From Candidatus Latescibacterota bacterium (GTDB lineage Bacteria; Latescibacterota; UBA2968; UBA8231), in NCBI GenBank assembly GCA_021295675.1, contig JAGWBY010000053.1:1-11040 (forward strand): a stretch of 11,040 nt of DNA, given 5' to 3'. Of the stretch, positions 553-7,473 are shown one piece after another (within the stretch, counting starts at the first letter, position 1; each line of letters begins with the position of its first letter). The notes under the pieces were generated by a model. It saw nothing but the letters and a program-made list of their open reading frames with translations. It was not told the DNA's origin and made no database searches. A program made the translations under genes and the position numbers.

Positions 553-566
553 ACCGTCTTTTTTTC

Positions 567-613
567 GGTGATTATCACCCTTGACGTGGGTGATAATCAC
601 CCATATCATGGGT
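567..613 (+). promoter_or_regulatory. Promoter inside an inverted repeat upstream of the DUF4143 ATPase
   Basis: Two perfect 14-base arms, GGTGATTATCACCC (567-580) and GGGTGATAATCACC (588-601), face each other across 7 bases. Each arm is itself nearly palindromic. The loop starts with TTGACG (581-586), a good -35 box. Exactly 17 bases later lies TATCAT (604-609), a good -10 box. A second small inverted repeat, ACCCAT/ATGGGT (599-604, 608-613), covers the -10 box. A repressor bound to the arms would block RNA polymerase. The expected transcription start is about 616, which is also the ATG of the ATPase, so the mRNA would be leaderless. The sequence symmetry is seen directly; promoter and operator roles are inferred. 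Confidence 0.7.
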
Positions 614-615
614 AT

Positions 616-1818
616 ATGAACACGAATCGACTATTACCTCGATTTGCTTCCGCGAGCGTGGAGCGAGCGTTGAGGGTCATGCCCGTGACCGTTCTCACTG
701 GCGCACGACAGACCGGCAAGAGCACCCTCGCCCGCATGCATCCCATCGGGACAGACCGGTCTTACTTCACCTTGGACGACTACGGCGTCCTCGAGCAGGC
801 CCAACGCGAACCGGATGCTCTTGTTGCTCGGGCTGTGCAGATCACGCTTGATGAGGTGCAACGGGTGCCGCATGTGCTGCTCGCCATCAAGCGCCTCGTT
901 GACGAAGGTCGGATTGCTGGCCGTTTCCTCTTGACTGGGTCGGCGAATCTGCTGCTTATGAAGGAGGTGGGCGAAACGCTGGCTGGTCGCGCTAGCTACT
1001 TGACGCTCTGGCCCATGACTCGCCGCGAGCAACGCGGGTTGGCTAGGCCTGGTCTGTGGACAGAACTCGTAGATGCACCCCCTACTAGATGGCGGGATGT
1101 GCTGCTCGCGGAGCCAGCCGAATCAGAGCCGTGGCAGGCCCTTGCTCGACGCGGAGGTTATCCCGTTCCAGCCCATGAATTAATCGACGATGAAGACCGG
1201 CGGCTCTGGTTCGAAGGCTACGCGGCTACCTACTTGGAGCGGGATATCCCGCGTCTATCCGCCATCGAAGGCATCACCGATCTGAGGAGGTTGATGACGG
1301 CAGCCTGTTTGCGCGTTGGAGGGCTATTAAACCAAGCAGACCTAGCTCGGGACGTACATCTTGCCCCCTCCACAGTGCAGCGGTATCTCAACTTGTTAGA
1401 GGTATCGTTCCAACTGGTGCGACTGCCATCCTATTCTGTCAACAGGACGAAACGGCTGGTCAAGTCATCCAAACTCTACTGGAGCGACACCGGGTTGGCT
1501 TTACACTTAGCGGGCGAGACACATCCTCGCGGCGCGGTGCTCTGCGACCTGCTCTCTTGGGCCGGTACTCGCGTCGAAAAAACGGAGATTCTTTTTTGGC
1601 GGACGACCAAGGGGGCCGAAGTCGATTTTATCATTGAAACAGGCCGGCGTCTGCTGCCCGTGGAGGTGAAGGCCTCCGCTAGCGTCCATCCCGGCGATGT
1701 GCGACATCTGCATACGTTTCTAGATGAATACTCCGATATGGCGCAGTGTGGAATGGTTCTATACGATGGCGAAGAGACGTTCTGGCTCACCGATCGCGTA
1801 CTCGCTGCTACTATCTAA
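616..1818 (+). CDS. AAA ATPase with DUF4143 C-terminal domain
   Basis: 400-residue P-loop ATPase of the AAA_14/DUF4143 type, widespread in bacteria and archaea; its cellular role is not established. Residues 29-36 (GARQTGKS) form Walker A, L78-DE-VQ82 is Walker B, and the LLTGSANLL stretch near residue 105 fits a sensor region. A winged-helix-like segment follows (LLNQADLARDVHLAPSTVQR). The C-terminal DUF4143 part has the typical SKLYWSDTGLA and GAEVDFII...PVEVKAS motifs. D337 and E350-x-K352 resemble the PD-(D/E)XK nuclease core. The ATG at 616 is preferred to GTG 568, because an N-terminus from 568 would be encoded by the operator-like repeat. No Shine-Dalgarno is visible, which fits leaderless translation. 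The gene sits between unrelated metabolic genes, and the next gene starts 18 bases after its stop, so read-through from this promoter is possible. Confidence 0.9.
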   Translation: MNTNRLLPRFASASVERALRVMPVTVLTGARQTGKSTLARMHPIGTDRSYFTLDDYGVLEQAQREPDALVARAVQITLDEVQRVPHVLLAIKRLVDEGRIAGRFLLTGSANLLLMKEVGETLAGRASYLTLWPMTRREQRGLARPGLWTELVDAPPTRWRDVLLAEPAESEPWQALARRGGYPVPAHELIDDEDRRLWFEGYAATYLERDIPRLSAIEGITDLRRLMTAACLRVGGLLNQADLARDVHLAPSTVQRYLNLLEVSFQLVRLPSYSVNRTKRLVKSSKLYWSDTGLALHLAGETHPRGAVLCDLLSWAGTRVEKTEILFWRTTKGAEVDFIIETGRRLLPVEVKASASVHPGDVRHLHTFLDEYSDMAQCGMVLYDGEETFWLTDRVLAATI

Positions 1819-3062: not shown

Positions 3063-3494
3063 TTACAGTGAATCGTGCTTGAATTGCACGTACGCGGGCT
3101 GCTCGGCAGCCACCGCCTTATCAGCGGCTCGACCAAAAGCACTCATGATTTCTTCGTAATCCGAGCCATAGGGCACGGTGACAACCGACGCAGAATCCAC
3201 AGCCGCCGAGGACATGTCGTCAGCAGCACACGTCACTATTACCGTCATGGGCGTGTATATGCTAAAGGTCAAAGCTCCCACGAGCCCATTGACGAAACTC
3301 ATCTGCGTCTCAACCCTAGCTACGCCATTTTCGCACTCACTTTGCGCTTCGACCACCGACGGCGGCACGAGGCCATATATCCAACTATGCTTCCACATCT
3401 CCACCGTCTTATGCCCCGGAGCAAGTCCTGTATCAATGGTCGCGTGATAACATCCGGCCAAAAGAAACAGGCTCCCCTGCAAACGCTTGATCAT
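3063..3494 (-). CDS. Bor-family lipoprotein with C-terminal extension
   Basis: 143-residue predicted lipoprotein. The N-terminus MIKRLQGSLFLLAGC is a short signal peptide with a lipobox (LAGC, lipidated C15). The middle matches the Bor family, named after the phage lambda protein linked to serum resistance: the core CENGVARVETQMSFVNGLVG continues into a segment containing SIYTP and ending VTCA. Lambda Bor is about 97 residues. This protein has an extra ~50 residues after the core, polar and partly acidic (DYEEIMSAFGRAADKAVAAE), with no recognised domain. AAGGGGG about 6 bases before the ATG is a good ribosome-binding site. It has its own promoter-like sequence and ends at the 3018-3056 hairpin. 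It probably sits in the outer membrane facing the periplasm or surface. Its role in a free-living bacterium is unknown; Bor-like proteins are found well beyond phages. Confidence 0.82.
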   Translation of the reverse strand: MIKRLQGSLFLLAGCYHATIDTGLAPGHKTVEMWKHSWIYGLVPPSVVEAQSECENGVARVETQMSFVNGLVGALTFSIYTPMTVIVTCAADDMSSAAVDSASVVTVPYGSDYEEIMSAFGRAADKAVAAEQPAYVQFKHDSL

Positions 3495-3615: not shown

Positions 3616-5243
3616 TCACGCCCTGCTTGACCAGTCCTGGCGGAGCCAATCCTCCCATCGACGCGCCAGATCCACTCGTGCATCACGCAGCGCGTCCGAG
3701 TAATGCGGATGTCCGGCCACGTAAGGGGGACTTAACGGCAGACGATGCCCTGTTATTGCTTCCAATGCGTCTCTTCGAGCCGCGAAGTTGGATATTCGAT
3801 TCATACGAGCGTCCTCTTCGAGACCGGAGACGATTTCTTCAGCAAAACGCGGATGAGCCATTCTTATGGCAAGGTGCAAGGATACGTAACGGACATCCAA
3901 GCTCGTGTCATTGAAGAGGACGCTGAGAGACGCGCTGCACTCAGACCACAAAGCTGGACAACCTTGCAGCAAGTGTACCGCCGCTGACCGGACAATCGGC
4001 GAAACGTCCCGACACGCTTCTTTGATGCAGTCCGAATTCACCTCGGACGTTTTGCTTGCCAGGACACACACGGTAGCGGCACGAACCTCAGGTTCTGGAT
4101 GGTTTAAACACTTCTTGATCAGTTGCAGAACCGCGTCCGGGAGTGCATCACCAACAAAGGAGAGGATAATATCCCTTACCTGCTCAGAATCGCCGGCACT
4201 AAGTTGATCCATCCGGTATTCGACCGAACGTTTCCGCCACTCCGACCAGGTTTGGTAGAGGCTCGTTATCGGCACGGGTGGGTGCTCCGCCACATCCATC
4301 GCCAAAGCACCTTCGACTGAAACCAGACCAGCGCGCAGGTCCGACCACTGTGGACGCTTCATCGACGAAGCGACAAGGGCTGTTTTCATGTCCAAGGCTG
4401 TCCAACTCGGATGCGCCTGCCACACACAGGCTGCGGCCCCAAGAGTGATCGGCCCCGAATACGATGTACCAAGTCTGCGAGCATAGCGCCGTGGGAGATC
4501 GTCTGTCTTACTGTAAAAGTGGTTTTCGATCTCTTCATCGGTTCCATGGGGAAGGACGATGTTCTCCGCAGGTGCCAGAATCTCCGGAATCCATTTTCCT
4601 TCAAAGGTCGTTCCCCGGCTCCCTGGAAACGCTTCGGCCCGGTCTAGATCCCCATCCGGGGAAAGCACTATCCCTCCAACGGAAAGCACCGACGGGGCCG
4701 CGGGTTCGGTAACCCCAGCAGTCCGGTCGGAGGTATTCCCCGACCCTGCCATTACGAGCACGCCTGCGGCCGCTATTTCTTCACACAAGATGCGTATTGG
4801 TTCCGTTTGCCAGGGCAGAAGGCTCGAGTCGACCTCACATCGGCGTGCCGACAATACAGCTCGTATCTCGTACTTGCTCCAGTTGTCCCGAACCCATTCC
4901 AGTGCCTTAAGATGTGCCGCATATCGTCCTTCAGGATCCTCGCTCTGGCCGGGAAAGTATTCGGCAACGAGAAAGAGATCGGCTTCCGGGACTCGGCACC
5001 TGATCCAGCAGCCGCAGCCGCGGCCCACAGCCCATGCGCGCCTCCTTTCCAAGGTCCAGGCTCCGCCTCAAACACTTTGGGCTGCGCTTCAGACTCCATC
5101 ACCATTACTTTGTAAGTTGTACGTTGTTCGTTGGTGGTGATATCGGGATGGCTTGGGAAATCCCCATCGACAACAGCAATGCGAACCCCTTTCCCCGTAA
5201 GTGCATCAGGCACTCTCAGGAAGTCTCGCAACGTCGGCCACAT
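3616..5243 (-). pseudogene. Cytoplasmic subtilisin-like (S8) peptidase with HEAT-like repeats, frameshifted
   Basis: Serine peptidase of the subtilase family. From ATG 5243-5241 (AGGAG-type ribosome-binding site just before it) the first ~83 residues give the catalytic Asp (GVRIAVVDGDF, D26) and His (GGAHGLWAAAAAAG, H70). The rest is in the next frame, starting RVPEADLFLVAEY. It includes the oxyanion Asn (MAGSGNTS, N170), the SVLSVGG strand and the catalytic Ser (GTSYSGPITLGAA, S261); numbering assumes one restored base. Adding one C at plus positions 4995-4996 restores GSGARVPEADLF, the standard subtilase join, and gives a 542-residue protein. After ~345 come helical HEAT-like repeats (HPEPEVRAATVCVLAS, SPIVRSAAVHLLQG, SLDVRYVSLHLA). 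No signal peptide, propeptide or membrane segment is seen, so action in the cytoplasm is likely. The gene starts 51 bases after the S9 peptidase stop, suggesting one operon. Confidence 0.82.
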
Positions 5244-5294: not shown

Positions 5295-7372
5295 CTACGC
5301 CTCAGCCACATGACAATTGAACCAATCCACAACGCGCCGACACAGATCATCGAGAGCATCGCGGGACCAAGCAGATGTGCCGTGGTGCTCGTCTTTGTAC
5401 AGCCGTAGCTCGACGCGCTTGCCGAGTCGGCGCAGGGCGACGAACGTCTCTTCGGCCTGCTTGGAGCCGTCCTGATCCCCTGTACCACACACGAGCAGTA
5501 GTGGAGTAGATACTCTGTCCAGGTAGAAGAAGGGCGAGTTCTCAATGTACGCAGCCCGATTCTCCCACGGCGAGCCGCCGAGGCGGGCCTGGCCCGTTTC
5601 GCACCATCCTATATGTCGGGTATAGATACTCATCATATTCACACCCCAAGGGGCATTAGCCAGTGCAGCTCGGAATCTATCGGTCTGCGCGACCAACGAT
5701 ACAACGCTGTATCCGCCATAACTCGAACCCATTAGACCCACGCGTTCGCCATCGGCCAGACCGAGTTCGACCGCCCGATCTACAGCGGCGAGTACCGGCT
5801 CCACCAGACCGACCATCGGGTCGGGAACAACACCGCGTAGCCAGCGCTGCACAGAAGTTGTGGCTCGATAGCATGCAGCCCTTGGAGACCAAAGCGATTG
5901 CTCGTCCCCACACCTCGGTACCCCCCATACACACTGACGATCATCGGATGCGGCGGTCGCGTCTCGGAAGGAAGCAACATCACTCCCCGGCATTGCATAC
6001 CGGCTGCTTCAAAGTCGATCAGTTCACTGCGGCCGAGTTTGGACACTTGGACTGCAGGCGCTAGACAAAATAGCCAGTCATGGCGTCCACCCTCTATGCG
6101 CAGCACGGAGGATGGACGCTCTGCCTCCTCCGCCATCAGGTAGTAGCACCCAGAGGAATCGTCCACCTCCATGCACCAAATTTGACCCGTGCATGTGCCC
6201 GGGATATCTGCTACGTGCTTCAGCCTTCCATCCTGCTCCAAATGGGCGACCTGCTCGCTCAGGTCGGACCGATTCTGCAGCACGACAGGTAGGCCCCCGG
6301 CCTGCGTCAATTGAATGGTGGATTCAGTCGGTCGTGCGATCCAATGACGCCTAGACCACTCTTCTGGAATCGATGCGCAGCGGTGATGGCCGGATTCCAA
6401 ATCGAATTGCCACCAAGCCTTGCTACCGAGTGAGTACAGCTTCGAACCATCCGGACTCCATCGCGGCGTGTCGTATTTCAGCAAGCGGTCGAACTCCGGC
6501 TTCGGAGTCAGATTTACAGGCTTTTCAGAACCATCGGCCGCGACGACGAACAGCTCGTCGGGCCGATCTCTACCGAAGGAGGTGTACGCAACATTCGCCG
6601 AATCCGGCGACCACGCGTAGTTGATGCCAAAGGCGCTGGCGATATTCGCAGCGAGCACCCTATCCTCTCCGGTCTCGATATCCACAGCGAAAAGCTCAAA
6701 CAGGCAGTGCTGCAAACTCGCTACATATTCGACGTAGCGCGTACAGGCCACGTGCCGGCCATCGGGCGCGATGCGCCAGTGGCCGGAGGCCCATTGTTGT
6801 AGCAGCTTCTTGACGGATCCAGTCGAGAGGCTACTCGGCACAGTCGGCTCGACCTCCGTGGTTGCGTCGGGATCGTTGGATCTGACGTCGATCTTTGGCA
6901 CGGGGCCGTGCGCATCTTCCCGATAGTCGCGCTCAGCAGGCCAGAGAGGTACTACGATGCCTTCGCCATCGGGCGTCCACACTGGCAGATCAAAGCCAAA
7001 GCGGACTAGAACAGGCGCATTCCGCAGCAACTCAACCTCCCCCGTGCCAACGTCCCACAGGCCCAGACATGCCACTCCTTCGTGCCGCACGCAGGCCACC
7101 AGCCTGTCGCCCGAAGGCGACCACTGAGCACCCCAGCTTACGCTGCCTTCGGGAAAAGGCCGCATCGACTCCCCAGTGACTGCATCTACGACAACCACGG
7201 AACTACCAGCCATTTCCGTAGGAACACCCCACTCGTCAAATCTCGGTCCCCGTGCGCCTTGGGTACGTCTTTGAACGCCAATAGCGAGTTGCCGTCCATC
7301 CGGGGACAAGTGAAAGGGCATCCGCCCGGTGGGTTTAGGCAGATCGACGAAAGAGGCGATGGTATTCTCCAT
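5295..7372 (-). pseudogene. S9 prolyl-oligopeptidase-like serine peptidase, frameshifted
   Basis: S9 family peptidase (acylaminoacyl-/dipeptidyl-peptidase type) that would cleave short peptides. The start is ATG 7372-7370 (MENTIASFVDLPKPTGRM), preceded by GGAGGG at good spacing; a TTG at 7444 is unlikely. The N-terminal half is a beta-propeller with PD40-type blades (HLSPDGRQLAI, QWSPSGDRLVA, RIAPDGRHVAC, AWSPDSANVAY, RWSPDGSKLYS). The alpha/beta-hydrolase begins at PHPMIVSVYGGYRG. After AGYAVLFPT (about 5820-5842) the frame is lost, and the next frame continues LRGVVPDPMVGLVEPVLAAV. It carries the nucleophile GSSYGG (Ser codon 5723-5721), CGTGDQDG with the acid, and DEHHGTS with the His. Missing bases are 1 modulo 3. 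Restored length is about 692 residues or slightly more. No signal peptide is visible. It is the first gene of a probable operon with the S8 peptidase. Confidence 0.85.
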
Positions 7373-7437
7373 GTATTCCCTCCATTGTGGGTAAAAGTAG
7401 CTGCGATTCTGCTGTCTTTGGATGGTATATTTTCGCG

Positions 7438-7473
7438 TTGACAAAGAGTACTGGAGGGTGTTACTGTTGTCAA
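7438..7473 (-). promoter_or_regulatory. Promoter of the S9-S8 operon flanked by an inverted repeat
   Basis: On the minus strand TTGACA (7473-7468, perfect -35) and TACTCT (7450-7445) are 17 bases apart, giving a start near 7438 and a leader of about 66 bases before ATG 7372. TTGACAA and TTGTCAA (plus 7438-7444 and 7467-7473) form an inverted repeat that brackets the promoter and extends, after a small bulge, by AGTA/TACT. This is a plausible operator, but no regulator gene is nearby. Confidence 0.5.

Follow-up and report, generated by a model that had tools for sequence, protein, structure and literature searches.

The sequence at 566-613 of the window (the whole stretch of DNA analysed, 11,040 nt) is very probably the private operator of the ATPase gene at 616-1818, whose product would repress its own gene. 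The site is symmetric, phased at 22 bp, conserved upstream of related genes and exclusive to the ATPase gene in the genomes searched, and it covaries with residues of the recognition helix of the ATPase. Tight, perhaps self-acting, repression had been suggested in an earlier note on this DNA. Self-acting repression is the best-supported reading because the conserved site covaries with the helix, the leaderless-type promoter that it appears to overlap is shared across the close family and the modelled protein has a winged helix. At the level of sequence, the gene has what marks an autorepressor: its own operator over its own promoter, specific to the DNA-binding helix of its own product. The features are collected in Table 1.

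Table 1. Features of the ATPase locus in the window
Feature	Position	Strand	Remarks
Operator palindrome 1, (C)GGTGATTATCACC(C)	566..580	.	Centre 573; left outermost base not symmetric
Predicted -35, TTGACG	581..586	+	TTGACG or TTGACA in 8/8 window-clade rows displayed
Operator palindrome 2, GGGTGATAATCACCC	588..602	.	Centre 595, 7/7 pairs; occupies the -35/-10 spacer
Predicted -10, TATCAT	604..609	+	Predicted leaderless type, 6 nt before ATG 616
Third half-site, ATGGGT	608..613	.	Overlaps the end of the -10
ATPase gene	616..1818	+	AAA_14 + winged helix + DUF4143, PDC-S01 profile match, 400 aa
Recognition helix, residues 251-263	1366..1404	+	P251, T253 and Q255 occupy the positions that covary with the operator across the family
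15-nt gap relative to L001	1535..1536	+	Nearly invariant H-L-E-N stretch missing from the window copy
Gene end	1801..1818	+	L001 is 25 nt longer; the family's PWWRV-like tail is missing from the window copy

Architecture of the operator

A repeat search of the window returned an inverted repeat with 14-nt arms at 567-580 and 588-601 (100% complementary, 7 nt apart) and a 22-nt direct repeat at 567-588 and 589-610 (77% identity). A 6-nt inverted repeat, 599-604 and 608-613, flanks and overlaps the -10. The earlier note had described a perfect 14-base inverted repeat with the -35 box in its loop and its second arm in the -35/-10 spacer, and a further 6-base repeat over the -10. The arms and their placement were as described, as was the shorter repeat, while the parse as a single repeat did not hold, since the half-sites form an array phased at 22 bp. 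GGTGATNATCACC palindromes lie at 567-579 and 589-601, 22 bp apart, and a third half-site, GGGT at 610-613, lies 22 bp downstream of the GGGT at 588-591. The array is two palindromes of 13-15 bp spaced by 22 bp plus a third half-site, rather than one 14-bp repeat, and the two inverted repeats first noticed are the faces between neighbouring sites of this array. GGTGATNATCACC is above chance in the window, with two mismatch-free matches versus 0.40 expected with up to two mismatches, though 8 of 200 shuffles also reached two such matches; the stronger evidence for the repeat comes from the comparison with relatives. Pairs of GGTGATNATCACC spaced 4-20 bp apart were found in 0 stretches of the viral contigs.

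Promoter and start codon

The predicted -35 and -10 are separated by 17 nt, the predicted transcription start falls on ATG 616 itself, and the words GGAG, GAGG, AGGA and AAGG are absent from 600-611. This agrees with the consensus-like promoter with a start on the ATG and without a Shine-Dalgarno sequence that had been proposed from the sequence. Promoter matches per se were not above chance in the window (4 found vs 4.8 expected). The start codon was taken as ATG 616 because, among the 17 homologues closest to the protein (P0001-P0017), 11 are 409 aa long and begin at its equivalent; two begin upstream and four downstream. A longer frame from GTG 568 in the list of open reading frames would begin within the operator.

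Promoters were compared between 163 close-family loci and 532 control ORFs. A -10 hexamer ended 4-10 nt upstream of the start in 117 family loci vs 33 controls, a -10 together with a -35 was found in 78 vs 2, and Shine-Dalgarno-like words were found in 4 vs 132. The gap from -10 to start was 7 nt in 76 family loci and 6 nt in 19. One gene, entered as L059 and L115, was counted twice here and in one of the tree tests below, and probably in the phasing and start-position counts too. Of 57 ATT-armed loci, 38 have the start at +13 from the palindrome centre, and 38 have the -10 at position 0. Within the window clade (8 of the 17 ACC-armed rows, which are close relatives) the start has shifted to +21 and the -10 to +9, with the gap still 6-7 nt. 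Because promoter and start codon shift together, as a leaderless promoter predicts, the promoters of the window and its close relatives appear from their sequences to be of this type.

The ATPase and a model for its action

Both Pfam domains of the protein passed their cut-offs (DUF4143, 110.9 bits against 28.1; AAA_14, 83.7 bits against 27), and the PADLOC PDC-S01 profile PDLC04790 matched residues 5-398 (1.4e-103). HTH_24 matched residues 237-262 at 21.4 bits, just below its cut-off of 21.9, and NCBIfam assigned no family to the two proteins searched. The AlphaFold2 model (mean pLDDT 87) has the order of a winged helix, with helices at 220-232, 240-247 and 251-263 followed by strands at 267-270 and 272-275; the winged-helix-like segment that the earlier note had pointed out is in the model a winged helix with its recognition helix at 251-263. 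Foldseek matched the model best to the archaeal ATPases 2fna and 2qen, then to NLR-type and apoptosome ATPases, with Cdc6/Orc1 also among the matches. When solved structures were searched by sequence, 2fna was the only match (E 3.7e-4).

The window copy retains EVD (335-337) and PVEVK (348-352) and has lost the nearly invariant H-L-E-N stretch. We take these to be residues of a PD-(D/E)XK active site. The C-terminal domain of this copy may be impaired, with its operator and winged helix intact.

We infer binding, the oligomer, the repressive sign, the inducer and the transcript start along the following lines. The winged helices of two ATPase subunits would read the two halves of a palindrome, one helical turn apart, and further subunits would read half-sites 22 bp, or two turns, away on the same face of the DNA. 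The bound ATPase would cover the -35 and -10 of the leaderless-type promoter and would repress its own gene because the bound subunits shut RNA polymerase out. Its release, perhaps via a change of ATP state or via invading DNA, would turn the gene on.

Binding and the sign of regulation are separate matters, and the ATPase might bind the site and activate its own promoter, or use the site for docking or self-recognition by its nuclease. The DUF4143 domain, of PD-(D/E)XK type according to the portion of PMC12988326 consulted, could act on bound DNA. Retention of the operator and winged helix in a copy whose DUF4143 domain has lost conserved residues is a further point for such readings. The operator sites, however, overlap the -10 and the -35/-10 spacer, and a protein bound there normally blocks polymerase. 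We regard activation or docking as unlikely.

Conservation upstream of relatives

Alignment A1 consists of the window and 43 of the 120 homologues listed. The genome scan was made with 44 aligned sequences, and the best 80 of 558 confirmed loci, which by their record titles come from many phyla, were kept. Among the 81 upstream regions of the window and these best 80 of 558 loci, a palindrome with 7/7 pairs was present in 30 (vs 1.3% of 3856 control windows), one with at least 6/7 pairs in 71 (controls, 18%) and an exact GATNATC in 43 (vs 136 of 4682 control windows). The arms vary by clade (GGGTGAT-, GAATGAT-, GTATGAT-, GGACGAT-, GGGCGAT-) with the symmetry retained. Among 42 distinct operators, complementarity is kept at pair 4 in 40, at pair 5 in 40 and at pair 6 in 27, each count being above all 2000 shuffles. 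The 22-bp phasing recurs as well: of 122 resolved operators, 75 have the right half-site again at exactly -22 and 59 have the left one again at +22, where the means over all offsets are 1.5 and 1.3, respectively. Locus L048 has four copies of the palindrome at exact 22-bp steps upstream of the start codon. An alignment of homologous upstream regions had been named as one check on the self-repression proposal, with absence of conservation counting against it; the repeat is kept in place upstream of the homologues and covaries with the recognition helix of the ATPase.

Helix residues and operator sequence

Operator classes sort by the residues of the recognition helix. P251 with Q255 (or L255) goes with ACC arms, and Q251/T253 with H255 goes with AT-arms, mostly ATT, ATC or ATG. 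The Q251/Q253/H255 combination has ATA arms in 7/9 loci and ATG in the other two, R251/H255 has GTC arms (three loci) and R251/S255 has GCC arms (two loci). Locus L058 was omitted from this sorting, and L007 was misregistered in it, its 7/7 GGGT/ACCC palindrome being seen in the palindrome count. From such data, residues 251 and 255 appear to track base pairs 4 and 5 from the centre and, less surely, residue 253 appears to track pair 6.

The rule was fixed in writing before held-out sequences were looked at, and the joint sets exclude loci at least 95% identical to earlier ones. The first held-out set comprised 56 loci with less than 90% identity to any training locus (L182 and L192, whose reading frames stop early, and L205, which has no upstream sequence, were omitted), and 40 were resolvable. 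The rule held at pair 4 in 39 of 40 (35 by guessing never G), including 4/4 with R251, and at pair 5 in 31 of 37 (24 by guessing always T), including 7/7 with Q, S or L at 255. Three of these loci, L176, L179 and L184, have R251 with Q255, a combination new relative to the training set; as the rule predicts, pair 4 is C:G and pair 5 is G:C in all three. In the second set, with 20 of 27 loci resolvable, the rule held in 20/20 at pair 4 and 18/20 at pair 5; since guessing alone scores 19 and 17, this set adds little beyond L236, another R251/Q255 locus that fits the rule. Operators meeting the criteria were absent from 16/56 and 7/27 held-out loci, respectively. Of the loci that fell outside the criteria, L234 fits on both arms and L233 fits on the right arm at both pairs. 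The five relatives L213-L217 (43-49% identity) retain either H or Y at position 255; L214 has AAT arms and the other four have ATT. Exceptions to the pair-5 rule are L138, L147, L185, L197, L200, L208, L214 and L237, several of which are of class GTGGTGGATAATCCACCAC, outside the scope of the rule. L185, L197 and L237, together with L199 (outside the rule), have a common palindrome, GT(G/A)GTGGATAATCCACCA-, that the rule leaves uncovered.

Column specificity was examined with 103 representatives and 1617 column-residue pairs. C:G at pair 4 correlated best with R251 (phi 0.94; next 0.57), and G:C at pair 5 with Q255 (0.85; next K332 at 0.74, then Q251 at 0.70). For T:A at pair 6, Q253 was tied with F257 and R215 (0.85), and the best correlate of G:C at pair 4 was the absence of Q240 (0.73). 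For mutual information, 80 of 84 loci were kept (L038, L067, L069 and L070 failed the register criteria) and 63 representatives were used. Residue 251 topped both arms at pair 4; at pair 5, residue 255 was top on the right arm and 251 on the left. At pairs 6, 1-3 and 7-9 the helix was not singled out, residue 253 not being the top column for pair 6, except that 253 was in the top ten at pair 8. Tests for independent switches on trees cannot reach 0.05 because three runs gave only 1-3 supported pairs per trait. None of the displayed pairings was contrary, and for residue 255 versus the left arm the operator was often unchanged. The case for covariation rests on column specificity, the first held-out set and exclusivity.

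One site per genome

Occurrences of two clades' palindromes were counted in 19 genomes, picked because a locus there carries the palindrome. GTATGATNATCATAC occurred once per genome in 7/7 and TGAATGATNATCATTCA once per genome in 12/12. Coordinates place all 19 of these sites at the ATPase gene, and therefore the host genome has no other. GGGTGANNNTCACCC was confined to the ATPase gene in G001-G004 (2, 2, 2 and 1 sites) and G006 (1); G005 had the pair at the gene plus five others with different centres, and G007, of another class, had none. The R251-class pattern GGNCGATNATCGNCC was not unique within its genomes, with 0, 1, 1 and 3 sites in the four searched; G087 and G089 each had one site at the gene. 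In a distant paralogue clade, TTTACGATNNNATCGTAAA occurred once in 5/7 genomes, always adjoining that paralogue.

Paralogues within one genome have different repeats when compared by eye (5 of 6 examined in G004, 5/5 in G065). An automatic inverted-repeat test was significant in 24/42 loci of the wider family, many of which are closely related, and in only some of the G004 and G065 paralogues. One paralogue clade (L108, L122, L123, L127 and L128) has ACAAATGGACGCTAAT-like direct repeats upstream in place of the palindrome, and other clades (L098-L107, L111-L114, L129, L131 and L134) have their own, quite different inverted repeats near the start.

These counts bear on the possibility that another host-encoded regulator, whether global, Fur-like or the product of a neighbouring gene, binds the palindrome. 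The sequence TGATNATCA resembles half of a Fur box. Nevertheless, the site is confined to the ATPase gene in 19/19 genomes of two clades, which is not the pattern of a regulon; no neighbour gene is common to more than 6/38 loci, and the site follows the ATPase's own recognition helix. Such a regulator is accordingly improbable. Still less credit can be given to the idea that the gene travels on a mobile unit whose end or insertion site is marked by the palindrome. The DNA similarity of L093 to the window is limited to 567-1808, operator plus gene, and relatives occur in many phyla, as a mobile unit might lead one to expect, but there is no second copy at the other end, each of the 19 genomes has one site, and the position of the palindrome is tied to promoter and start codon. 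A hairpin in the RNA of a longer leader, which the 14-bp inverted repeat with its 7-nt loop could form if transcription began further upstream, has next to nothing in its favour, as the predicted start lies downstream of the repeat, the conserved palindromes have a one-base centre, G-T occurs in only 4/488 arm pairs and the repeat tracks a DNA-recognition helix. All three readings were set aside on these grounds.

Other genes of the window

Read-through from the ATPase gene could reach a mandelate racemase/enolase-type gene (1837-2853), which follows 18 nt downstream and has the same orientation; in L090 the two genes are separated by about 1 kb of other DNA. On the minus strand, an S9-type peptidase (5295-7444) is split into two overlapping frames resembling a frameshift, 5780-7444 with the beta-propeller part and 5295-5993 with Peptidase_S9. 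A subtilase with HEAT repeats (3616-5052, minus strand) overlaps a frame at 4773-5243 that resembles its N-terminus (span 3616-5243), possibly a second frameshift. A Lambda_Bor (Bor-protein) domain was found at 3063-3494 on the minus strand (E 2.3e-21); the usual setting of Bor proteins is phage and enterobacterial, unlike the host of the window.

A cultured relative

The best plasmid match, at 53% identity, was TT_RS11170 on pTT27 of Thermus thermophilus HB27. CTGAATGACTATCATTCAAGT lies upstream of its start, the helix SQPTVHRYL agrees with the code, and its promoter reads TTGTCT-17-TATCAT-6-ATG (counted by hand). TGAATGANNNTCATTCA is unique within the 232,605-bp pTT27 record. TT_RS11170 is probably TT_P0211, judging from strand, position and a protein numbering that stays in step from cas2 (TT_P0101). 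In the part of PMC4406477 consulted, TT_P0211 is 6.6-fold up in HB27 with a plasmid, with no such change without TtAgo. This rise fits an inducible gene and shows no mechanism.

Relation to known systems

The initiators DnaA and Orc1/Cdc6 are likewise AAA+ ATPases; they carry a DNA-binding helix domain at the C-terminus and recognise repeated boxes upstream of the genes that encode them. They differ in binding many sites and starting replication, whereas in the genomes searched each copy of the window's family has a single private site, and the protein continues into a DUF4143 domain. Restriction-modification C proteins, BrxR/CapW and antitoxins are dedicated repressors with a palindromic operator over the promoter. 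These are separate small regulators, whereas the window ATPase would be repressor and putative effector in one. The archaeal ATPases SSO1545 (2fna) and PABY2304 (2qen) share 20 and 17% identity with it, and their matches span residues 1-300 of the model and not the C-terminal domain.

By profile the window ATPase belongs to the same family as PDC-S01, a single-gene defence candidate of PADLOC. PDC-S01 is described as a fusion of an ATPase with a domain of the PD-(D/E)XK superfamily and, in one survey, as the fourth most common defence across prokaryotes, with 9986 counts in Archaea and 29,494 in Bacteria; validation is pending for most such candidates (PMC12988326, in the portion consulted). 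Self-binding, an operator and a leaderless promoter, all proposed here for the window ATPase, do not figure in that portion of the account (PMC12988326). Our literature search on DUF4143, COG1373, PDC-S01, Pfam accessions and operator strings, conducted mostly outside subscription journals and preprints, returned no report of such regulation among the papers listed.

As a tentative generalization, about which we are more doubtful than confident, PDC-S01/DUF4143 ATPases could be self-repressing sensor-effectors, each with an orthogonal, co-evolving, 22-bp-phased operator that silences a leaderless promoter. Invading DNA or its products would pull the ATPase off, and several copies would coexist without cross-talk. 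For the close family of the window, the present analysis predicts a DNA target and a helix-to-operator code that can be read, and it points to a cultured laboratory organism in which binding, repression and induction are measurable. If the analysis is right, the helix-operator pairs would be a natural set of orthogonal repressors.
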